A stretch of 35,465 nucleotides of DNA from Lachnospiraceae bacterium (GTDB taxonomy: Bacteria; Bacillota; Clostridia; Lachnospirales; Lachnospiraceae): positions 1 through 35,465 of the forward strand of contig JAJQDE010000008.1 of the NCBI GenBank assembly GCA_021202335.1, given 5' to 3'. A model generated the notes under the pieces. The model saw nothing but the letters and a program-made list of their open reading frames with translations, was not told the origin of the DNA and did no database searches. Below, one piece after another: positions 1,606 to 35,465 of the stretch. How positions within the stretch are numbered: position 1 is the stretch's first letter; each line of letters starts with the position of its first letter. A program made the position numbers and the translations under genes.

Positions 1606-2082
1606 ATGAGAGTGGTAAAGGACGCCGACATCCGGAAAGCTGAAATACTGGACGCGGCAGAAAAACTGTTTAACGAAAAGGGCTATTCCAAAGCAACAAC
1701 CGAGGATATTTTTGAAATGACAGGCATTGCAAGGGGAACCTTATATTACCATTTTAAGAGCAGGCTGCATGAAAAGGAAAATTCCGAGCTTCATCAAAAG
1801 AGCTTTCAGCAAAGCCTTTTGCGTTACACACCCGTCATGACTGAAATTGTGGAACAGGGAATAAAAAGCAGTGAATTTTCCACTCCATACCCTAAGGAGA
1901 GCGTGGAGCTGCTGCTGTGCGCCTCGCAGCTTCATGATCCGGGAGTTTTTCAGTGGTCGCAGGAGGAACGCGCGCAAAAAAAGAAAGCCTTCTTTTGGAT
2001 GCTTGAAATCACTCTCGGTATCGCGCCCGACGCAAAGGAAAAGCTTTATCGGTTAGCAGGATTATCACAGGAGGTAGTGTAA
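1606..2082 (+). CDS. Shortened TetR-family regulator, probably non-functional
   Basis: The product is 158 residues. Residues 1-50 form a standard TetR helix-turn-helix domain (AAEKLFNEKGYSKATTEDIF, TGIARGTLYYHFKSR). The sequence then jumps straight to HEKENSELHQKSFQQSLL, which in relatives lies some 45-50 residues further on, within the ligand domain. TetR proteins are usually 190-200 residues, so an in-frame internal deletion in the first ligand-domain helices is likely. I chose the ATG at 1606 because AAGGAG (1595-1600) sits 5 bases before it; a GTG at 1600 overlaps that site. TetR genes like this usually neighbour an efflux transporter, and the next fragment downstream may be the tail of one. 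DNA binding could survive, but ligand response is doubtful. Confidence 0.7.
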   Translation: MRVVKDADIRKAEILDAAEKLFNEKGYSKATTEDIFEMTGIARGTLYYHFKSRLHEKENSELHQKSFQQSLLRYTPVMTEIVEQGIKSSEFSTPYPKESVELLLCASQLHDPGVFQWSQEERAQKKKAFFWMLEITLGIAPDAKEKLYRLAGLSQEVV

Positions 2083-2107
2083 AAAATAAGCTTGATAGCT
2101 TATTTTT
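2082..2107 (+). terminator. Terminator of the TetR gene
   Basis: A perfect 11-bp stem, AAAAATAAGCT-TGAT-AGCTTATTTTT, starts at the stop codon of the TetR gene and ends in a T run, so it can work as an intrinsic terminator. The stem is AT-rich and may be weak. Confidence 0.6.
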
Positions 2108-2110
2108 ACA

Positions 2111-2163
2111 AAAACAAACAAAGTTTGTTTTAGCTATATTGTGCCGGAGCGTCACAAATAGCT
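2111..2163 (+). repeat. Truncated copy (C) of the intergenic pseudoknot repeat
   Basis: This copy keeps the two hairpins of the element. The upstream hairpin is AAAACAAAC-AAA-GTTTGTTTT at 2111-2131. The second is AGCTATATTGTG/CACAAATAGCT with the 9-base loop CCGGAGCGT at 2144-2152. The second stem has one extra base on its 5' side. The downstream strand that should pair with the loop (ACGCTCCG) is missing: the sequence breaks off after a short ACGCT at 2179-2183 and runs into a transporter-like fragment. It is the closest relative of the copy at 18160-18247, with which it shares CGGAGCGTCACAAATAGC. Confidence 0.7.
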
Positions 2164-2166
2164 TTG

Positions 2167-2292
2167 ATGGCAGACGCGACGCTGTTTCAGATTGGATTTT
2201 TCGGCGCAATGGCTACCTACGCACAGCTTATTATCTGCATTTGCTTCTATTTCTACATCAGGAAAAAAGACCTCAGGAAATTTGAAGCTTGA
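2167..2292 (+). pseudogene. C-terminal fragment of an integral membrane protein (transporter-like)
   Basis: The 41 codons from the ATG at 2167 encode one long hydrophobic helix ([20 protein letters not shown]) followed by a basic tail, [11 protein letters not shown], and a stop. This is the usual look of the last helix and tail of a polytopic transporter such as a MATE efflux pump, a common partner of TetR genes. No N-terminal portion is present, and the frame runs back into the repeat copy instead of into coding sequence. The MATE assignment is a guess; that this is a membrane-protein tail is more secure. Confidence 0.4.
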
Positions 2293-2464: not shown

Positions 2465-5400
2465 CTAATTTATATTCTTTGCGGTTATCTTAAATTTAAT
2501 CGTTTTGGTGCCGCTGTACACCCCTATTCCTTTTATGAATGCCAGCGCCGTACCCTTATTAACATTATCGGAATATACAATCTCATAGTCAGTACCCAAT
2601 TTAAGCGGATCCGTTACGCCCTTGAGCGTAACCTCCAGCTCGCCCTCAGCAAATGTAATCGCCTGACCCGTATAGACTTTTGTAACGGATTTACCCGTTT
2701 GGGCATCCTTTACCTTCGCCTTAGCTATGTTCACACCCACCGAAAACTCTGCTCTCTTTGTTTTTGTATCCGTTTCAAGGTTTTTGCCGTCTGCGGCTAC
2801 AGCCTCCACATAAACAGTTGTGCCCGCCGTAAGCTTATCACCCGGGCTGCAAGGCGTCGTATCGTTTTCCCCCTTATAAACATTCAGCTTATACTGTGAG
2901 GACTTTAGCGCGTTCCCATTGCCATCCTGCACGGTCGCCGTGACCTTGCCCGCCTTTATGCCATCGTAAACAGCTGCCGCACCGACTGCCGCCTCGGACA
3001 AATCCAGCTTATTAATGGTATAACTCTTGGTTATGCTTTTTGCGTAGTTGCCCTTGCCTGTAATGACTAGCTTTCCGCTCCCCGCCTTTTTATTGGACGA
3101 GTATTTTACGGTATAATCCGCTCCCTCCGTCAGCGTAATCTCCGCATCGTCGTTTTTGTATGTGACAATCAGGTTTTCAAGCGTCGCTCCCTTTACTGCA
3201 TATGTTCCTGCAAGCTCATACGTCGTGCCGCCATCGTCCGATTCCTGCGACACGCTGACCTTACTGTCATCAAGCTTTTGAGCCGTTATCTTAAAAGTCT
3301 TTTTGAGCGTGGTATTATCCGCGCCCGTAAGCAGTATCGTGGCAGTTCCTTTATTGACATTGTTGGAAAACGCTACTGTTGCCGGAATGAGAGCTTCCGA
3401 TTCATCATCCGTCACATATGTACCCTTCTCGTCAGAATATTTGTAGCTTACAGGGGAGCCGCCCTTTAATGTAAGCGTAAGGGAGTCCGGATAGATTTCC
3501 GCGCCAAAGCAATATTCCTGTGCCGCAATGCCCGCAAGCTTTGCACCCTTAAGGCTTTCAAGGTTTGCGGATTCGTCCGCTTCCTTATCCGCAATCTCAA
3601 AATAGCCCTTTAAATTTTTGCCCGTATAGTTTCCCTTGCCTGTTATTGCAACCACCGCTTTTTTATTTTCCGTGGTGACTTTGACATTGTCCGTATATTT
3701 TACGGTATAATCGGTTCCCTGTACCAAAAGCCTGCCGCTTGCGCTGTCAATATCATAATCCCTGACCTCAAATTCCGGGATTACCTTTGCGCCGGTATAA
3801 TAGTACACCTTCTGTGCGCCGGAAGAATCGCTTGCAAACACAATCTGCACGCCGCTGTTTTCTTCCGTATCGCTTTCTTCCGTTTCCGATTCGGAAGGCT
3901 CCGTATCGCTCTCATCCTCCTCCCACTCCGCATAAAACGTAGCGTCGCCGCTTACCGTATACGGATATGTGACTTCCGTGGAACAGGACGCGTCCAAATA
4001 CAGACCCTTTAGCGTATATCCCGTCCGCTTAAAGCCGGATGGCGCTAAAGCGCTCATATCGTCATAGCTTGTGCCGTCCGCTGCCTCTATTTCCTTTTCA
4101 TCGGGCGAGCCGTCATAATTGTAGCTGAAGGTAAGTATGCTGTAGGTCGTTTCCGGCTCCGCATTTACCACGGATATATAAAACAGATTAATTGTGTCGC
4201 CCTTCGTAATTTCATGTGTTCCTGCCGATAAATCCGAAACCGTGACCGTAGCCTCGGAATCCGTCGTATACGAATTTCCGTCAACCTTTACTGCTTTGCC
4301 CGTTTCCGTGGACGCAAACGCCATAAACAGCGACGCTCCTTCGTTACAGGTAAAAGTTATCGAGGTTTTAGACTCCATTTTTACGCAATATGCATATTCC
4401 GTGCCGTTTACCGTCGCCGACCCCTTGGAATCCGAATAGCTCACATTCGATGTCGTAAAGAAATCCGTATCTCCGTTATTGACCTTGCCCGTAAAATAAA
4501 GCACATAATCGCCCGCCGCCGTGCTGCCGGAGGATGCTTCGCTGTCATCGTCATCACTGCTCTCTCCAATTGCTATCTCCTGAGTCTGTACATCGCCGCA
4601 GACGGTGCATGTGCGGGTCTTTTCGCCCGTTTCGGTATCCGTGGCTTCCTTTGTCACAACCCAATCGCCGTAGCTGTGTCCCAATGCGGCAACTGTTTTA
4701 GTCTTGTCGCCCTCATAATCGCACTCACCGTCGCCCACGCATTTATAGTAGGTGGTTCCTTCCTCAGTGCAGGTGGCGGCAATCGTCCTGTCCTCGTCAA
4801 CCTCCCATACGTGATAATGCGCGTCGGGATCGTATGCCGTTATAACAAGCGAATCTATCGTCATGTCCTTAAATGTGACAATGGTTCCTTCCGAATAATC
4901 TCCTGTAGAGAAGGTTTCCGCCTGTATCATATATGTGCCCGCCGGCAGATTGATGACGCTGCCATCACCCTCCAGCAGATTTTCTCCTGCTTCGTTTACA
5001 ATCACGCCGACCACGGAGCTTGAATAAGAAACCTCCAGATTAAACGCCGTTTCAACGGTAAAGGCGTACGTGGTCTTTGATATCTTTCCGGGCGAAAGCT
5101 CCTGCGGAAGCGAGGTAAACGTATTGACAGCCGCACCGCTTCTCTCAACCACGGAATAGTCGCTTTGAGTCACCTCGGAAGCGGTCTTTGGCTTCTGCGC
5201 CTGCACGCCTGTCCGGGAAACTATCACCTGCCTTAAAGCGGTAAAATCCGTCTGAAGCTCATAGTCCTCATCGGGAATATATGAAAGGCTTGAGTCCGTA
5301 TCAAACGTGCTGTAATCAATACCCCCATATTCATACTGACAGCTGTTTTCCACCTCCTGCGTCTTGCTATCGACCACAGTGCCCAATGTTCCGTTATACA

Positions 5401-7096
5401 CGATGCTCGCAAACGAATCCTGCCAGCTTTTTATCGCGCCGCCGTCCACGCGCTGCGGGTTTTTGCTCGCGTAAAACAGATTGTATTCTGAAAATATGTA
5501 TGCGTCAGCCCTTGTATTCTGCGCGTAATCCGTCTGCATATCCACAACATTATTGTACATATGGATATTTGCCCTGCGCGCAAGCGGTCCCCTTGCCTTA
5601 CACATATACCAGTAATTATGGTGATATGTGAGGTTATACTGCAGACTGGTGTCCGCCGAGCCTACCAGATTTGTCTTATGGCAGCCCTCAAAATAATTGT
5701 AGCTGCATGTGAAATACTGCCCTCTTTTGAAATCCACGGAGCCGTCGCCCTCTGATTTGTCAGATTCCGCAGGGTTGGAAATTTCCGGACAGTAAAATTC
5801 ATTGTTGTGGATCCAGCACCGCTCCACGCTTGCGGTAAGATAGCTCGACGCGCTTGCGGAAGCCTGCACGCCCTCCATCCCTATGGCGTCCTCAGGGGTA
5901 TTGATGAACGTGAGGTTGCGCACCTCAAAGCTTTTCCCATAGCTTGTGGCGGAGCTTTCCGCCATAAAATGCACGCCCCAGCCGTCCAGCACGGCATCAA
6001 AGCCAATGCCCTCAAGCGTAATATCCTTGCCGGATTTCATGCGCGCCATATGTCCGTTATCCCCGCTGGTGCCGCCGTTTCCGGTCGAATCATAATCCGT
6101 GAGTCCCTCTATCAGACCCTCCGATGAAGCGTCAAACGTCCCCTGCTCATAAAGACCCGACTCCGACACGGTGCCTATAAATCTGACCACAAGCGGAGTA
6201 CCCGCAGCCGCCAGCTTTTTTATAATGCCCTGATTTGTATTCCCGGCATCCTGTCCTACGGAATTTAAAATATTGCCGATGCCGGTCACGGTCACGTCGC
6301 CGACGGTAAGCGACACTGTATTTTTATTATCGTCCGTGACATAAAGAACCACTGCGTCATCCTTAAGCGTGCCGTCGTCGTTATATGCGCCCACGCCGTC
6401 CGTATAATTAAAATGCGCATAACCGGAGCGGTCGTATGCATAAACGGAGATATCCTCTTCCTCGAGCGTGCTTTCCCCGACCTCTACCGTCAGCGTATAT
6501 GTACCCTCTTTAAGTCCCGGAATATCTATGCGGACCGTAGAATCACCGCTGTCCCTTACAAGATATTCAAAATCATCGCCGGTCAGGCTCCCCGACGCCG
6601 TCCCGGACCAGCTGACCGCCGTGACGTCGGAATCCGAAACACCTTCAATCTCCGCATAAATGCTTTCATTCCAGCCTCCCACGTTTGAAAATGAAGAAAC
6701 GCTGACTGTATTTACGGCATCCTCGGTTTCCGTTTCCGTTTCGGTTTCCGTTTCCGTTTCTTCCTCCATCTCAGTTTCACCATCCGTTTCGGCTTCCTCC
6801 TCCGTTTGGGCTTCCCCGTTTGTTTCCGTATCCGAGGCTTCATCTTCTGTCTGAGTTTTCTTCTCTGTTTGGGTTTCCCTGTTTGTTTCCGCATCCGAAG
6901 CTTCCTCTGAAGCATTCTCTTCGAAAGCTTCCGACGTTTCCTTAGCCACCTCGCTTTCCGTTTCCTCGACTGTTTCGCTTTCCGTTTCCTCCGTCAGTTC
7001 TCCTGCAAAGACTGTGATATTTGACATCACAAGCGCAAGCGACATCAGAAACGCAAAAATCCTGTTTTTACTTTTTAAATTTTTTAATCCTCCCAT
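2465..7096 (-). CDS. Secreted multidomain pectate lyase (PL1-type)
   Basis: The 1543-residue product begins at the ATG at 7096, placed 7 bases after GAAGGGAG; an upstream in-frame ATG at 7144 lacks a site and would spoil the signal peptide. Order: signal peptide (1-31, ending NITVFAG); Glu/Thr-rich linker to about 125; Ig-like domain to about 225; a PL1 right-handed beta-helix about 225-600; a Cys/His module with LGH at about 755-845; a carbohydrate-binding-like domain about 865-980; an InlB-type B repeat about 985-1055; a second acidic linker; then four Ig-like repeats with GKGNYTG or GKGNYAK cores. The lyase core shows [26 protein letters not shown] and the RGPLAR site matching the catalytic RxPxxR of the family. 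It would cleave polygalacturonan outside the cell. No sortase or S-layer anchor is visible; it ends in an Ig-like repeat. Confidence 0.85.
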
Positions 7097-7161
7097 ATAA
7101 AGCTCCCTTCTAAAGGCGGTCAAATAATTTACATGTATCCCCATCCTGCGACACCGGCTTG

Positions 7162-17169: not shown

Positions 17170-18153
17170 TCACAGCATTTCGCGGTACACACGCAGCACA
17201 TTCCGGTACGCGATTTTTTCCATACCATCCTCAGAAAATCCCGCTTTTTTTAGCGCGTCAAACAGCTTATACATCTGCGAGCAATCCTCCATTTCAAGCC
17301 TTCCGCTGATTCCGTCAAAATCCGAGCCAAGCCCGAGGCCCTCAGACCCGCCCACCTTCACGATATAGCGCGCATGCTCTGCAATCCGCTCCACGGTTGA
17401 ATTATCGTCATACCTTTGATTGAGAAAGCAGCCGTAATAATTCAATCCTATCACGCCGCCGCGCTCTGCAATCTCCCTTATCATATCATCGTCAAGATTT
17501 CTTGCGTGCCCGCAAAGCGCACGCGCATTGGAATGGCTTGCGACAAAGGGCTTTTTGGTGCAGTCCGCGATTTCCCAAAAGCCTGCGTCGGACAGATGCG
17601 ACACATCAATAATGATACCAAGCTCCTCCATTCTCTCCACAAACGCAAACCCCGTTTCGGTAAGCCCTCTTGAGCCGTCAAACAGGGCAAAGCCCTCCGC
17701 GTTTCTTTGTTCACTGAAAATATTCGGGTTTGCAAGCTCGTTTTGATAGTTCCACGTCAGAGTCATCATGCGCGCGCCCAGCTCATAGAGCCGCTCAAGC
17801 TTTTTGATATCCCCCTTGCAGCAGCCTCCCTCCTCAATTGTCAGGAGTTCCGAAAGCCTTCCGCAGCGCTCGTTCTCCATAAGCTCATCATAGGTTTTTA
17901 TGACACCGATGTCATTTTTATTCTCCAACAGCTCCTCATAAAAAACCCTTATTAAATCCAACACGTACTCAAATGAATCCAAATCCTTTTTCAAATCAAC
18001 AAACATGGCAAAGCTTTGCAGCAAATAGCCCGACTGCTTCATTTTCGCAAGGTCGACATGCAGACTGTTTTGGGAAAGCCTCTGCGGCTTCCCCTCGCGC
18101 CTGCTTTCCCATATGGCTGATATCGTGTCGCAATGCATATCCGCTATTTTCAT
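17170..18153 (-). CDS. Membrane-dipeptidase-type peptidase (family M19)
   Basis: The product of 327 residues starts DMHCDT, the first zinc site (HxD) of renal-dipeptidase-like enzymes, and continues with TIEEGG, TLTWNYQNELAN, IDVSHLSDAGFW, ASHSNARAL and GLGSDFDGI, which supply the other metal and substrate ligands. M19 enzymes hydrolyse dipeptides, sometimes with D-residues. There is no signal peptide, so it is cytoplasmic. I prefer the ATG at 18153 over the TTG at 18159, since GGGG at 18164-18161 is 7 bases from the former and only one base from the latter. The leader contains a full copy of the pseudoknot repeat, so translation may be controlled there. Confidence 0.92.
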   Translation of the reverse strand: MKIADMHCDTISAIWESRREGKPQRLSQNSLHVDLAKMKQSGYLLQSFAMFVDLKKDLDSFEYVLDLIRVFYEELLENKNDIGVIKTYDELMENERCGRLSELLTIEEGGCCKGDIKKLERLYELGARMMTLTWNYQNELANPNIFSEQRNAEGFALFDGSRGLTETGFAFVERMEELGIIIDVSHLSDAGFWEIADCTKKPFVASHSNARALCGHARNLDDDMIREIAERGGVIGLNYYGCFLNQRYDDNSTVERIAEHARYIVKVGGSEGLGLGSDFDGISGRLEMEDCSQMYKLFDALKKAGFSEDGMEKIAYRNVLRVYREML

Positions 18154-18159
18154 TTTCAA

Positions 18160-18247
18160 TCCCCATTCCGGAGCGTTAGCGACGTGATGCCGTCAAAGCT
18201 ATTTGTGACGCTCCGACACAAATAGCCGGAACAAACAAAGTTTGTTC
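18160..18247 (-). promoter_or_regulatory. Pseudoknot leader element, copy A (before the dipeptidase)
   Basis: In RNA order on the minus strand: hairpin GAACAAAC-TTT-GTTTGTTC (18247-18229); two bases; a perfect 10-bp hairpin GCTATTTGTG/CACAAATAGC (18226-18217 with 18207-18198) around the 9-base loop TCGGAGCGT; a weak GACG/CGTC hairpin; then ACGCTCCG (18176-18169), complementary to eight loop bases, a ninth U-G pair being possible; then GAATGGGG, which carries the ribosome binding site 7 bases before the dipeptidase ATG. The loop-tail pairing would make an H-type pseudoknot ending at the ribosome binding site. Only the sequence is seen; the fold and any regulation are inferred. Confidence 0.65.
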
Positions 18248-24993: not shown

Positions 24994-25314
24994 CTAATGC
25001 CGTCCGTTCTTAAAAAGCGCCTCTCTTACAACACCCTTCGGGTCTTTGATGAGCACCCGCGCAAGCCAAATTACAAGACCGAGCGCCACCACGGATATTC
25101 CCAAATAAAAATCGTTTAACATATCGCCTGCCTCCGGCGTAAAGTATGCAGCCCCCAGCTCGGCATATTCAAAAATCGCATCCACAAGCCACATCAGTGA
25201 TGCACCCCAATACATAAGGCAAAGCATACCGATTTTCATTTCACTTCGGCTGCTGCTCTCGTACCAAACTATTGTACTGATAACAGCCGCAAATACGGCA
25301 GTAAGCAGCGTCAT
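24994..25314 (-). CDS. Small membrane protein of the lar operon, unknown function
   Basis: The 106-residue protein has three hydrophobic helices (LLTAVFAAVISTIVWYES, IGMLCLMYWGASLMWLVDAI and FYLGISVVALGLVIWLARVL). I chose the ATG at 25314 because it overlaps the stop of the upstream gene (CCATGA); a longer frame to 25395 would lie inside that gene. I do not recognise the family. Its position between another small membrane protein and larE suggests nickel or lactate transport or anchoring, but nothing in the sequence proves this. Confidence 0.75.
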   Translation of the reverse strand: MTLLTAVFAAVISTIVWYESSSRSEMKIGMLCLMYWGASLMWLVDAIFEYAELGAAYFTPEAGDMLNDFYLGISVVALGLVIWLARVLIKDPKGVVREALFKNGRH

Positions 25315-25727
25315 GGCTCTCTCCTTCCTCTTACGGGCTGCGGTGCAAGCGGCTTCTTTTCCAACATATTCGATACCGCCACCATTCCTGCCCATACTGC
25401 CGTCACAAGAATCGACATTGATACTCCCACGGTTCCCATTTCATGAAACAGCTCCATCGCATCGGCAGGGTCGGACATCGCTGTCAGGAACGGGAAATAA
25501 GGAACCACCTCCCCATGCCAGATGTGCTCAAAGCACAAAAGAGCGGAACCGCCCCAAAGCATATTATTCAGCCATTTCAGCTTTTCTGAAAACTGAATTT
25601 TGTTTTCCGCAAAAAGCTCCGTCCTTTCAGCGGGATTTTTCTCCGCCTGATTTTCCCTCCTTTGCAGGATTTTAGTCGCTGCCGTCGTAACAACTGCCTC
25701 CGTTACCGGTACAATAAAACAACCCAT
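25311..25727 (-). CDS. Small membrane protein heading the lar operon, unknown function
   Basis: The 138-residue product begins MGCFIVPVTEAVVTTAATKI, has a charged middle segment (about 22-50) and two further hydrophobic stretches (WLNNMLWGGSALLCFEHIWH, VSMSILVTAVWAGMVAVSNM). The middle contains HIWHGEVVP, with two His that could bind a metal. I set the start at 25727, since GGAGG (25737-25733) is 5 bases upstream; the ATG at 25739 is part of the repeat tail. It overlaps the next gene by ATGA. It is the first gene after leader copy B and may be a membrane partner of the next protein. Confidence 0.75.
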   Translation of the reverse strand: MGCFIVPVTEAVVTTAATKILQRRENQAEKNPAERTELFAENKIQFSEKLKWLNNMLWGGSALLCFEHIWHGEVVPYFPFLTAMSDPADAMELFHEMGTVGVSMSILVTAVWAGMVAVSNMLEKKPLAPQPVRGRREP

Positions 25728-25732
25728 TTTTT

Positions 25733-25863
25733 CCTCCATTCCGAAGCGTTTTCGCTGAGGAACGCGAGCCGAATCTCAAATTCGGCTCTGCGATAAAAAG
25801 ATTTGTGACGCTTCGGCACAAATCTGAGGTTGAAAAAATACTCATCAGAGATTTTTTCAACCT
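25733..25863 (-). promoter_or_regulatory. Pseudoknot leader element, copy B (before the lar operon)
   Basis: In RNA order on the minus strand: a 13-bp hairpin AGGTTGAAAAAAT/ATTTTTTCAACCT (25863-25851 with 25839-25827); one base; a 9-bp hairpin AGATTTGTG/CACAAATCT (25825-25817 with 25807-25799) around the loop CCGAAGCGT; a 9-bp hairpin GAGCCGAAT/ATTCGGCTC (25788-25780 with 25774-25766); then ACGCTTCGG (25749-25741), complementary to all nine loop bases; then AATGGAGG with the ribosome binding site. Compared with copy A, a G-C pair of the loop-tail helix has become A-T on both sides. The first hairpin could also end transcription from the restriction genes upstream. Confidence 0.7.
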
Positions 25864-25896
25864 TGTCCTCCTTCTATTCAATGCTTCATAAGATTA

Positions 25897-31087: not shown

Positions 31088-31210
31088 GAACCAACCTTGT
31101 TGGTTCTGCAACCTTGTTGGTTCTGCAACTTTGTTGGTTCTGCAAGTTTGTGATTGCGCGCTGCTTGCACAAACATTGCTTTATGCGCAAAAAGCAGCGC
31201 AGAAATGAGG
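31088..31210 (+). promoter_or_regulatory. Pseudoknot leader element, copy E (before the chemoreceptor)
   Basis: Order: hairpin GAACCAAC-CTT-GTTGGTTC (31088-31106); further 17-base repeats of its 3' half; hairpin GTTTGTG (31146-31152) / CACAAAC (31168-31174) with a 15-base loop containing GCGCTGCTT (31158-31166); then AAGCAGCGC (31192-31200), complementary to all nine; then AGAAATGAGG with the ribosome binding site 6 bases before the ATG at 31217. Loop and tail share almost no sequence with copies A and B, yet the complementarity, the TTTGTG/CACAAA stem and the tail AATGRGG are kept. An alternative TTGCGC/GCGCAA pairing (31154-31159 with 31185-31190) competes with it. Confidence 0.55.
31093..31143 (+). 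repeat. Three tandem 17-bp repeats in the chemoreceptor leader
   Basis: AACCTTGTTGGTTCTGC occurs at 31093-31109 and 31110-31126, and with one change (C to T) at 31127-31143; a decayed fourth start, AAGTTTGTG, continues to 31152. Each unit carries GTTGGTTC, able to pair with the single GAACCAAC at 31088-31095, so three alternative hairpins are possible. Confidence 0.85.
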
Positions 31211-31216
31211 AAAAAT

Positions 31217-32947
31217 ATGAGAAGGCATATCGGTACTAAAATTATCACTTTATTGGTAGTCCTATTCGTGATTTTCGAGCTGACCTGCGCAATAGGGTTA
31301 AGCTCAACAAGGAAAATCTCAAGCGAGGTAAGTACGCTGTCAAATATTTATCTCGAGATGGAAAGGGAAAGAGCAGAGCTTACATACAATTTTGACAACA
31401 TAAAGAATTACTCAAACCTGATAGCATTTCTTCCTCTTCCCGAGGCAACGGCAGGCATTATCGGGGAGGTGGACGGCACCATAGCCGCGGTGGATGAAAA
31501 TATTGAGTCGATAAGGCAGCTTTGCCAACAAACAGGAAACGCGCAGCTTTTGTCGGCATATGAGGATTATGTTGCGGCGCTCCTGCCCGCAGAGGATGTG
31601 CTCACACAGGTTGCCGAGCTGTACAGCCAAGGTGACTCGGACGCCATGACCACCGTGGCATTGACCTTCAATGATTTAATAGAGAATATAACCGCAACGG
31701 AAAATGCCTTCAACGATATACGAAACTCTCAAAGCGCCCTGTGCCAGCAGGAGGTTGAGAGCGTTATAAACAGAACGCAGGCAATTATGGCAGCAGCGAT
31801 GGTCATATCAGCGCTGTTCGTAGTCGGAATTTCACTTGTGGTACTGCTAAGCGTAGCAAGACCGGCGCAGAATGCCGGCAGGCGCCTGGAGGGCATCATT
31901 GAAAAAATCGACCACGAGGAGGGCGACCTCACGGAGCGCATTGACGTGACATCGCAGGACGAAATCGGACAGCTTGTAAGCGGTATCAACAGCTTCATTG
32001 AAAAGCTGCAGAGCATAATCCGGACACTGCGGCAGGATTCGAGGCTTATGGCAGAATCCGCCAACCAGATATTTGACCATGTAAATGAGTCAAACGATAA
32101 TGCCGTCAATGTATCGGCAGTCATGGAGGAGCTTGCCGCAAGTATGCAGGAAATAGCGGCAACGGTTGAGCAGATTGGCGGAAACACGCAGTCAGTTCTC
32201 GGCGAAACAAACATGATAGCCTCAGGCGCTCAAGAAGGTTCGGAGCTTGTCGATGTGATTAAGGAGCGCGCGGAAACAATACGCGAGGATACCTTGGAGA
32301 GCAAAAACAACACCAGCGTGAAAATGGACGGCATAAAAACAATACTTGCAGCCTCCATTGACGAAAGCAGGAGTGTTGAACAGATTGCAAAGCTTACGGG
32401 GGATATCCTTGACATATCCGGCCAAACTAATCTGCTGGCGCTGAATGCCTCAATAGAGGCCGCGCGCGCGGGTGAGGCAGGAAAGGGCTTTTCCGTCGTG
32501 GCAGACGAAATCCGCGTATTGGCGGACAACAGCCGCAATACCGCAAACGATATACAGGTCATCAGCAAGACGGTCATGGATGCGGTAAAGAAGCTTGCGG
32601 ACAACGCAAACGAAATGCTTTCTTTCATCAATACCACGGTACTGTCAGACTATGAAAAATTTGTCAGCGTAGCGGACCAGTATCATGCGGACGCAGACAG
32701 CATAGACCAGATTATCAAGCGTTTTGCGGACGGCGCAAAGACACTTGTGGGAACGATGAACAATATGACAAGCGAAATTGAGGGTATTGCGGCATCCGTG
32801 GAGGACAGCGCAAAGGCCGTGACAAGCGCGGCGGAAAGCACGGAACAGTTCGTTTCGGCAACCGCCGGCATCCGGGAGGAGGTCAATGTCAACCGTGACA
32901 TTGCCGCACAGTTAGAAAGCGAAGTGAATAAATTTAAGCATATTTGA
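31217..32947 (+). CDS. Methyl-accepting chemotaxis protein
   Basis: The 576-residue receptor has a transmembrane helix at about 8-28 ([20 protein letters not shown]), a helical extracytoplasmic domain of about 160 residues resembling the 4HB type, a second helix at about 190-214, a HAMP domain to about 270 and a long signalling coiled coil. The hairpin tip reads [20 protein letters not shown] then [20 protein letters not shown], the site for CheW and CheA contact. I chose the ATG at 31217 with GAGG 6 bases upstream; earlier in-frame ATGs lie inside the leader. Ligand unknown. No other chemotaxis genes are in the window. Confidence 0.93.
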
Positions 32948-34205: not shown

Positions 34206-34280
34206 GTATATATGTTTGAGTTTTCGCCGTTATTTTAGTATAAGGTTCCTTCTTATGCCGCCTACATTAATATGTCAATA

Positions 34281-34359
34281 TTGTATTGATTTTTACATTT
34301 CAGGCACTTTTTTTACATTTTCCATTGCATTTTTTTGAATATTCGTGTATGCTCCAAAT
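34281..34359 (+). repeat. 79-bp direct repeat, left copy, holding the Rpn promoter
   Basis: This stretch recurs at 35387-35465 with 3 differences in 79 bases; the last 50 or so are identical. It contains TTGCAT (34325-34330), 17 bases and TATGCT (34348-34353), a plausible promoter for the Rpn gene, so the repeat is probably a duplicated promoter region. Confidence 0.85.
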
Positions 34360-35367: not shown

Positions 35368-35386
35368 TAAATGTTTAATACATATT

Positions 35387-35465
35387 TTGTATTGATTTAT
35401 ACATTCCAGTCACTTTTTTTACATTTTCCATTGCATTTTTTTGAATATTCGTGTATGCTCCAAAT
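35387..35465 (+). repeat. 79-bp direct repeat, right copy at the window edge
   Basis: This is the second copy of the Rpn promoter-region repeat, 1106 bp after the first. It ends exactly at the window boundary, so it may extend further and probably precedes another Rpn-type gene. Confidence 0.85.

Follow-up and report, generated by a model that had tools for sequence, protein, structure and literature searches.

A family of small structured repeats, probably mobile, at ribosome binding sites of Lachnospiraceae

A 35,465-nucleotide stretch of Lachnospiraceae DNA (hereafter the window; contig C22 of G000, a 2.74-Mb genome in 65 contigs) carries copies of a short repeat immediately ahead of genes, and these copies belong to a real family, undescribed in the literature that was searched, of structured leader elements that are mobile and sit at ribosome binding sites. 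The sequences are best read as a new family of small repeats, mobile but non-autonomous, with a specialisation for Shine-Dalgarno sites. The whole explanation, in which insertion is targeted to the Shine-Dalgarno region, duplicates it and, in one subfamily, is accompanied by a pseudoknot that keeps the site open, is assigned a probability of roughly 0.6. The interest of this explanation lies in its target rule and in the function of the knot, both of which are unproven.

Copies in the window and anatomy of the elements

The sequence-only reading of the window had recognized three copies, A, B and E, each with an upstream hairpin, a second hairpin and a tail complementary to the loop of the latter. 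Re-reading of the exact coordinates placed all three copies where they had been reported, with loop and tail pairs precisely as given. The RNA strand corresponds to the minus strand for copies A and B and to the plus strand for copy E. The features, including those of a fourth, decayed copy, are as follows.

18229..18247, minus strand: copy A, hairpin 1 (GAACAAAC..GTTTGTTC), sequence re-read
18198..18227, minus strand: copy A, hairpin 2 with stem core TTTGTG/CACAAA, from the core search and a model hit
18208-18216, minus strand: copy A, hairpin 2 loop TCGGAGCGT
18181..18194, minus strand: copy A, short hairpin 3 (GACGGCATCACGTC), located where other copies have the variable hairpin 3
18168..18176, minus strand: copy A, tail ACGCTCCGG, complementary to the hairpin 2 loop with T.G at the first loop base
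18157..18164, minus strand: copy A, Shine-Dalgarno region GGGGATTG, with the start codon ATG at 18153
17170..18153, minus strand: gene behind copy A, M19 membrane dipeptidase (Pfam)
25828..25862, minus strand: copy B, hairpin 1 (GGTTGAAAAAATC..GTATTTTTTCAACC)
25799..25825, minus strand: copy B, hairpin 2 with loop CCGAAGCGT at 25808-25816, model hit, re-read
25763..25794, minus strand: copy B, hairpin 3 (ATCGCAGAGCCGAAT..ATTCGGCTCGCG), a helix that covaries in alignments
25741..25749, minus strand: copy B, tail ACGCTTCGG, compensated relative to copy A
25858..25873, minus strand: copy B, left flank AAGGAGGACAAG..., resembling by eye the ribosome-binding region of element-free orthologues
25311..25727, minus strand: gene behind copy B, 138-aa protein without a Pfam match, ATG at 25727
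31088..31146, plus strand: copy E, hairpin 1 module and repeats (GAACCAACCTTGTTGGTTC; three copies, 17-nt spacing)
31147..31173, plus strand: copy E, hairpin 2 (type II) with 15-nt loop ATTGCGCGCTGCTTG
31192..31200, plus strand: copy E, tail AAGCAGCGC, complementary to the loop part GCGCTGCTT at 31158-31166
31217..32947, plus strand: gene behind copy E, chemoreceptor (HAMP, MCPsignal), ATG at 31217-31219
2075..2196, plus strand: fourth, decayed type I copy, model hit at 2131-2196, re-read

The elements are ~70 to 200 bases in size and carry no protein gene. Read on the RNA strand, a typical type I element starts from a left flank that often contains a G-rich word resembling a Shine-Dalgarno sequence. 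There follow in order hairpin 1, of which several unrelated versions exist, hairpin 2 with a stem around TTTGTG/CACAAA and a 9-nt loop CCGGAGCGT that pairs with the tail, hairpin 3 in a long (GATGGCAGACGC...GCGTCGCCCCGTC) or short form, the tail ACGCTCCGG, the stretch AATGGAGATTA and the ATG of the gene. The hairpin 1 module of copy A also precedes hairpin 2 in several other copies. Type II elements follow the same order with a 15-nt loop (ACTGCGCGYTGCTTG or close), in which the part GCGCTGCTT faces the tail AAGCAGCGC or GAGCAGCGC. The tail is separated from the Shine-Dalgarno sequence by about 3 bases in type I and by 6 bases in copy E. By eye, only the loop and tail are inverted repeats and the outer ends of the elements are not, and the hairpins are not followed by a U-run that would suggest a transcription terminator.

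A covariance model, R1, which was built from 56 type I sequences, recovered copy B (E=1.8e-19), copy A (E=2.6e-13) and the decayed copy (2131-2196, plus strand) in the window, and the same search returned no match for copy E. The grouping of A, B and E as one family holds for the architecture, which is shared, but copy E belongs to a separate subfamily that differs in sequence. The decayed copy has hairpin 1 at 2075-2109, a second hairpin at 2113-2130, an extra base in the hairpin 2 stem and a degenerate tail. The genes behind the copies had been described as an unrelated dipeptidase, nickel-cofactor operon and chemoreceptor: the first and last of these assignments stand, but copy B adjoins the gene for the 138-aa protein, with a Ni_insertion protein further downstream on the same strand.

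Hairpin 1 of copy E consists of a 17-nt unit amplified in tandem (31088-31151), as if modules can expand. By eye, AAGCA, which makes up the first half of the tail in type II, also can pair with TGCTTT just after hairpin 2 (e.g., window 31174-31200) as an alternative to the pseudoknot. In further relatives, designated type III, a hairpin 1 of the same style precedes a simple hairpin (TTTGTGCAGAGGCACAAA or a similar sequence) whose loop is tiny and has no tail to pair with. These loci (L205, L207, L242, L263, L266, L271, L282 and L289) are from relatives of the window genome; in L205 and L207 the type III element is upstream of der, and R1 weakly matches L205 on the opposite strand. As type III lacks a pseudoknot, some members of the wider group can do without this structure.

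An NTG at the start of hairpin 1 might open a short frame that controls the gene behind, and many copies indeed have a Shine-Dalgarno-like word before an NTG AAA AAT start inside this hairpin. However, inspection by eye revealed that the start codon is lost where hairpin 1 begins GTGTAA or GGGGGAAA and that the frame differs between copies. A leader peptide was rejected on this basis, as neither start nor frame is conserved, and is highly improbable. At the other end of the element, an ATG that overlaps the Shine-Dalgarno sequence is located in frame 12 nt before the true ATG in the window (31205-31219 and 25725-25739) and in many other copies. In-frame upstream ATGs that are created by copies can mislead start-codon annotation.

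Two other repeats were noted in the window. An 82-nt direct repeat, 95% identical, occupies 34278-34359 and 35384-35465 at the window end, and dense short repeats (TTTCCGTTTCC type) lie at 6721-6992 inside a 1559-aa minus-strand ORF (2465-7144).

Distribution and insertion sites

The type I core TTTGTGNCGNAGCGTCACAAA was found 27 times in G000 compared with none in a reversed control. The pattern TTTGTGN{6,20}CACAAA, which is its own reverse complement and counts the same places on both strands, occurred at 68 places in G000 compared with 8 in the control. The covariance-model search that had been proposed as a check on the sequence-only reading identified 57 copies in G000 and produced matches, at E up to 0.01, in all 12 genomes supplied, which were chosen for earlier pattern matches: 57 in G000, 48 in G114, 34 in G226, 28 in G009, 20 in G211, 16 in G151, 15 in G183, 12 in G030, 2 in G010 and one each in G232, G056 and G189. 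G030 is a member of another family in the same order as the window genome. Among 200 genomes of the window's family, about one per genus, the type I core was present in 13, with 20 copies in G114. A scan of named genomes yielded at least 117 stretches with the core; among the 80 matches listed, about four in five bore the name Lachnospiraceae or a genus (Acetatifactor, Roseburia, Eisenbergiella, Lachnospira), and the other titles were Clostridium, Clostridiales, Eubacteriales, Bacillus sp. or only bacterium. The type II pattern, copy E included, occurred at 16 places in G000, which was the only one of 38 genomes of the genus to contain it; none was found in the other 37 genomes searched. Element cores are situated ~30 bases from contig ends at C14:30-50 and C25:31-51 of G000. 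Cores in such positions imply that the repeat may break assembly and that copy counts may be lower bounds. Carriage by phages or plasmids was rejected: the exact core was present in none of the stretches in IMG/VR, and a blastn search of plasmid and phage sets with copy A returned no match.

Orthologous sites were compared between element-bearing genomes and their relatives. Fifty-one elements were read in G000, of which 15 had both flanks matched to one place in the relative G004. The element was absent from G004 at all 15 testable sites (nine type I, six type II), and neither R1 (in 1.39 Mb of G004) nor the type II pattern had any match in that genome. The der gene, assigned by reading, has an element in G000 and was devoid of a type I element in all 29 loci read from the 36 relatives with a match. 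Similarly, the element was missing from 23 of 23 orthologues read of the copy A gene (31 genomes had a match and 7 were not read) and from 4 of 4 orthologues of the copy B gene. In L026 and L017 the element lies, by eye, between stop and start codons that overlap or nearly touch in the relative. These empty orthologous sites support the interpretation of the elements as insertions that are absent from relatives at the compared positions, in agreement with the earlier suggestion of a mobile repeat. The properties observed are those of MITE-like sequences, namely short length, lack of a protein gene, many copies, and presence or absence at orthologous sites. Dozens of genes in one bacterium (57 model hits) have an additional structured leader that is missing from close relatives at the compared sites, and two of these host genes are, as read from the sequence, presumably der and coaD. 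The pairs of element-bearing and element-free genes offer a natural test of the effect of the leader on translation.

The position of the elements relative to start codons was examined in a named set of 118 exact cores, 97 of which were followed by ≥250 nt after a recognised tail. An ORF start was present 7-23 nt after the tail in 89 of the 97, and at exactly 13 nt in 69; 8 elements had no ORF start behind them. Random positions passed the same test in 896 of 4991 cases (18%), and, as a further control, an ORF start within 60 nt on the antisense far side was present for 24 of 108. An earlier count under other rules gave 102 of 108. Neither count used elements that were chosen for a downstream ORF, whereas the sense elements in the G.U/A.C, flank and folding tests were so chosen.

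Empty sites mostly display the gene's own ribosome binding region before the ATG (e.g., AGAAATGGAGATA in der), and for der and copy B it is similar to the sequence that flanks the insert on the left. Sequences to the left of hairpin 1 and to the right of the tail were compared in 72 elements, which remained from 152 sense elements after omission of 67 without a recognised hairpin 1, 11 with tail-like left flanks and 2 for length. The longest common word averaged 5.65 compared with 4.75 in shuffled flanks (sd 0.12; highest of 2000 shuffles, 5.21), and a shared word of ≥7 nt was evident in 20 of the 72 elements compared with 6.7 expected and at most 16 in shuffles. Odd words were observed on both sides of some copies (GAGGCATA, AACGGAGGTTA, AATGGAGACCAG, AATAGGAGAAA) in a first flank set that included some antisense false hits. 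Likeness of flank words within a copy would be expected if a target that includes the Shine-Dalgarno site had been duplicated. As duplication is apparent in a minority of elements only and spacing to the ATG is uniform (69 of 97), part of AATGGAGATTA, or the second Shine-Dalgarno sequence, may belong to the element itself.

The following sequence of events would accommodate these observations. Many insertions have occurred, and nearly all copies tested are sense-oriented and lie immediately upstream of the start codons of unrelated genes. In comparisons with empty sites, the old ribosome-binding region corresponds to the left flank of the insert. Insertion would target the Shine-Dalgarno region and duplicate it (target-site duplication), leaving the gene with a ribosome binding site downstream of the insert. 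In type I only, the pseudoknot may then hold the tail away from the Shine-Dalgarno sequence in the mRNA, leaving the site open and rendering the insertion tolerable. A more specific version, in which the element itself recognises the Shine-Dalgarno sequence, inserts in the sense direction between that site and the start codon and duplicates the site, with the knot either making the insertion harmless or representing the moving RNA form, is advanced tentatively. We know of no element with a Shine-Dalgarno target rule. If true, a mobile element specialised for ribosome binding sites would represent a new insertion strategy.

Covariation and folding of the loop-tail pseudoknot

Covariation was assessed in two alignments. 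The first, A1, consists of 56 sequences, most of which were selected by the fixed core. In A1 the hairpin 2 outer stem and hairpin 3 covary, with 183 cells showing two-sided change compared with 61.2 in shuffles. Pairing in the loop-tail helix reaches 98.0%, although the loop is mostly fixed by selection. The second, A2, comprises 38 model hits from other genomes in 33 distinct rows, with identical rows counted once. In A2, 94.2% of cells pair compared with 78.8% when shuffled and 35 to 45% when slid, and 24 pairs change on both sides compared with 14.5 in shuffles. The loop-tail covariation expected by the sequence-only reading was recovered in A2, where the helix is 94.6% paired with two-sided change at six of nine pairs and the model was built without that helix. 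A2 includes 19 near-identical places from G009 that have one shared history, as well as one weak antisense row; as the G009 places dominate the alignment, the two-sided changes represent a few events seen many times.

The loop and tail sequences also differ with pairing kept, as had been claimed for copies A, B and E, in type II, G009, G030 and others. In G009, loop TCTGAGCGA faces tail TCGCTCAGA with three of nine pairs different from type I, and the pair closing the stem is changed from G-C to T-A. In L054 of G000, ACTTGGTC occurs with GGACCAAAG. Apparently separate events, with the G009 set among them, are a change from G-C to A-U at loop position 4, in which 12 of 12 loops ending CGAAGCGT have CGCTTCGG; TTGGAACGT with ACGTTCCAG in L339 of G226; the G030 loops ACGAAGCGC and CCGAAGCGC with GCGCTTCGG and GTGCTTCGG; CTGGAGCAT with ATGCTCTGG in L188; and GCGTTGCTT with AAGCAACGC in the type II locus L038. 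An A at loop position 4 is opposite T in 13 of 13 cases and never opposite C, whereas G.U occurs 16 times in 152. Among type II elements, the loop-tail helix is not kept in L051 and contains a single mismatch in L045 and in L047. Selection of the named set (L078-L194) by the exact core means that its loop cannot vary, and the pseudoknot count instead rests on A2, on G000 and G114, and on type II; a good match between loop and tail was required of the elements from G000 and G114, which favors pairing. Overall, an H-type pseudoknot formed by the hairpin 2 loop with the tail is well supported as a prediction from these comparisons.

Pairing between loop and tail might alternatively operate in DNA, with the two segments acting as subterminal inverted repeats for a transposase or within single-stranded DNA structures and the RNA fold as a by-product. 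The loop and tail are inverted repeats near both ends of the element, terminal inverted repeats are described for small MITE-type repeats (PMC3049150), and folding of type II leaders predicts no effect of the pseudoknot on the Shine-Dalgarno site. However, the sense orientation beside start codons speaks against such an element, and hairpins 2 and 3 covary too. Moreover, at loop-tail positions 3-9 of 152 type I elements there are 30 G.U compared with 3 A.C combinations, as expected for RNA, albeit with loops that are partly fixed by the search. Positions 2-4 of the hairpin 2 outer stem show a weak RNA-strand asymmetry (14 G.U, 10 A.C). An element that functions at the DNA level is considered a doubtful, although serious, competitor.

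The effect of the predicted pseudoknot on the Shine-Dalgarno site was computed. When 147 type I leaders were folded without pseudoknots, the mean probability of the site being unpaired was 0.31, which is partly due to its pairing with the tail (CUCC) in the nested fold (mean 0.34). With loop and tail held, the site was unpaired at 0.47, and the same value was obtained with the tail alone held. In contrast, a control in which the loop and a neighboring 9-nt stretch were held gave 0.19. Of 149 individual leaders, 68 had a more open site with the pseudoknot and 26 a less open one. The duplex of loop and tail is strong, with a mean of -15.5 kcal/mol. The computed folding suggests that the type I pseudoknot would favor an open state of the second ribosome binding site. 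For 17 type II leaders, the site was unpaired at 0.56 in the nested fold, 0.62 with the pairing held and 0.63 in the control, with tail pairing at 0.001. Opening of the site by the pseudoknot was ruled against in type II, for which computed folding revealed no difference. As type II retains loop-tail pairing without a folding effect, opening of the Shine-Dalgarno site cannot be the whole purpose of the pseudoknot. Regulated opening and closing, or a role in mobility, is possible.

A translational switch was considered in this context. The pseudoknot would sense a protein, ligand, temperature or the ribosome, and the repeat would have spread by placing genes under common control. The position beside the start codon, the covarying pseudoknot and the capacity of the type I tail to pair with the Shine-Dalgarno sequence (mean 0.34) are compatible with this proposal, but the downstream genes are unrelated, orthologues lack the element, occurrence is patchy (type I core in 13 of 200 genomes) and there is no competition between tail and Shine-Dalgarno site in type II. 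Such a switch is judged unlikely compared with insertion at Shine-Dalgarno sites by a mobile repeat.

Known families and candidate mobilisers

The earlier statement that the element matched no known riboswitch or ribozyme was corroborated with Rfam 15, which at the gathering score returned only a tRNA from the window. Relaxed scans added nothing but matches far below the cut-offs: the best match in the copy A region was to a coronavirus 3'UTR family (E 0.0013; 20.6 bits compared with a cut-off of 174.8), copy B had one match at E 0.55 and copy E had none. No description of these repeats was found in open-access PMC full text. The suggestion of a cis-acting RNA family was upheld in part: a repeated structured RNA with a loop-tail pseudoknot is indicated by covariation and by the lack of an Rfam match.

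Riboswitches typically serve functionally related genes. The genes behind the present elements do not share this property: a dipeptidase, a chemoreceptor and a protein without a Pfam match in the window and, by eye, der, coaD and a ParA-like gene elsewhere. Translational riboswitches of the preQ1 type are similar insofar as the pseudoknot overlaps or adjoins the Shine-Dalgarno sequence, as outlined in the available part of PMC9410914, but differ in that the genes downstream of the present elements are unrelated and no Rfam family matches. Patchy presence before unrelated genes, combined with absence from orthologues, speaks against a classical riboswitch. The pseudoknot at the 5' end of tisB provides a likeness in mechanism only, and not a relative, as a leader pseudoknot matters there for translation initiation; the portion of that report available concerns one gene with a standby site ~100 nt upstream of the ribosome binding site and does not describe it as mobile (PMC7708055).

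The nearest known kind is probably, by analogy, a small non-autonomous repeat such as BOX, RUP or SPRITE of Streptococcus pneumoniae, which their authors think to be parasitic and non-autonomously mobile in the available part of the report (PMC3049150). These repeats likewise are small, multi-copy, structured and transcribable, and BOX is modular, but according to the same part of that source they are enriched between convergent genes, and BOX and RUP have paired terminal inverted repeats (PMC3049150). The elements reported here are set apart from that description by sense orientation at start codons and by the loop-tail pseudoknot.

REP/BIME, ERIC and Correia-type sequences are interspersed intergenic hairpin repeats that possibly act at the RNA level. 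These and other stem-loop repeat families are covered in a review (PMC2267715, available part). The present elements differ from them in ribosome-binding-site position, in the pseudoknot and in the absence of a Y1 transposase from G000. An IS200/IS605-type mobiliser of the REP/PATE kind accordingly was rejected, as the Y1 transposase domain (PF01797) had no match in G000; one or two matches were detected in each of G004, G114 and G030.

RNA-mediated, SINE-like mobility would entail reverse transcription of the leader RNA and its insertion at the Shine-Dalgarno site by a reverse transcriptase acting in trans, for example one encoded by a resident group II-type intron ORF. Sense insertion, flank duplication of variable length and the presence of a PF00078 match in five of the seven genomes searched (G000, G114, G183, G211 and G151) are in keeping with this pathway. 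However, G030 has 12 copies and no PF00078 match at 98% completeness, and the core pattern was not found in the locus of the single reverse transcriptase ORF of G000, which is of the group II-intron type by reading of the sequence. The reverse transcriptase was rejected as mobiliser on these grounds, and movement by this route appears improbable. Autonomous long copies also were considered and rejected for two loci. L163 and L165, in which the only tail-like match is >220 nt away, had no further tail in the locus and no transposase was visible in the 500 nt read. The enzyme that moves the element, once found, would be a tool for adding leaders before genes.

Certain elements are close to one another. 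Two elements are convergent at a distance of about 600 bp (L009, G000:C26, positions 17387 on the plus strand and 17966 on the minus strand; see also L316). In addition, the left flank resembles the tail of another element in 11 of 152 cases. The convergent arrangement and the tail-like left flanks point to nested or tandem insertion.
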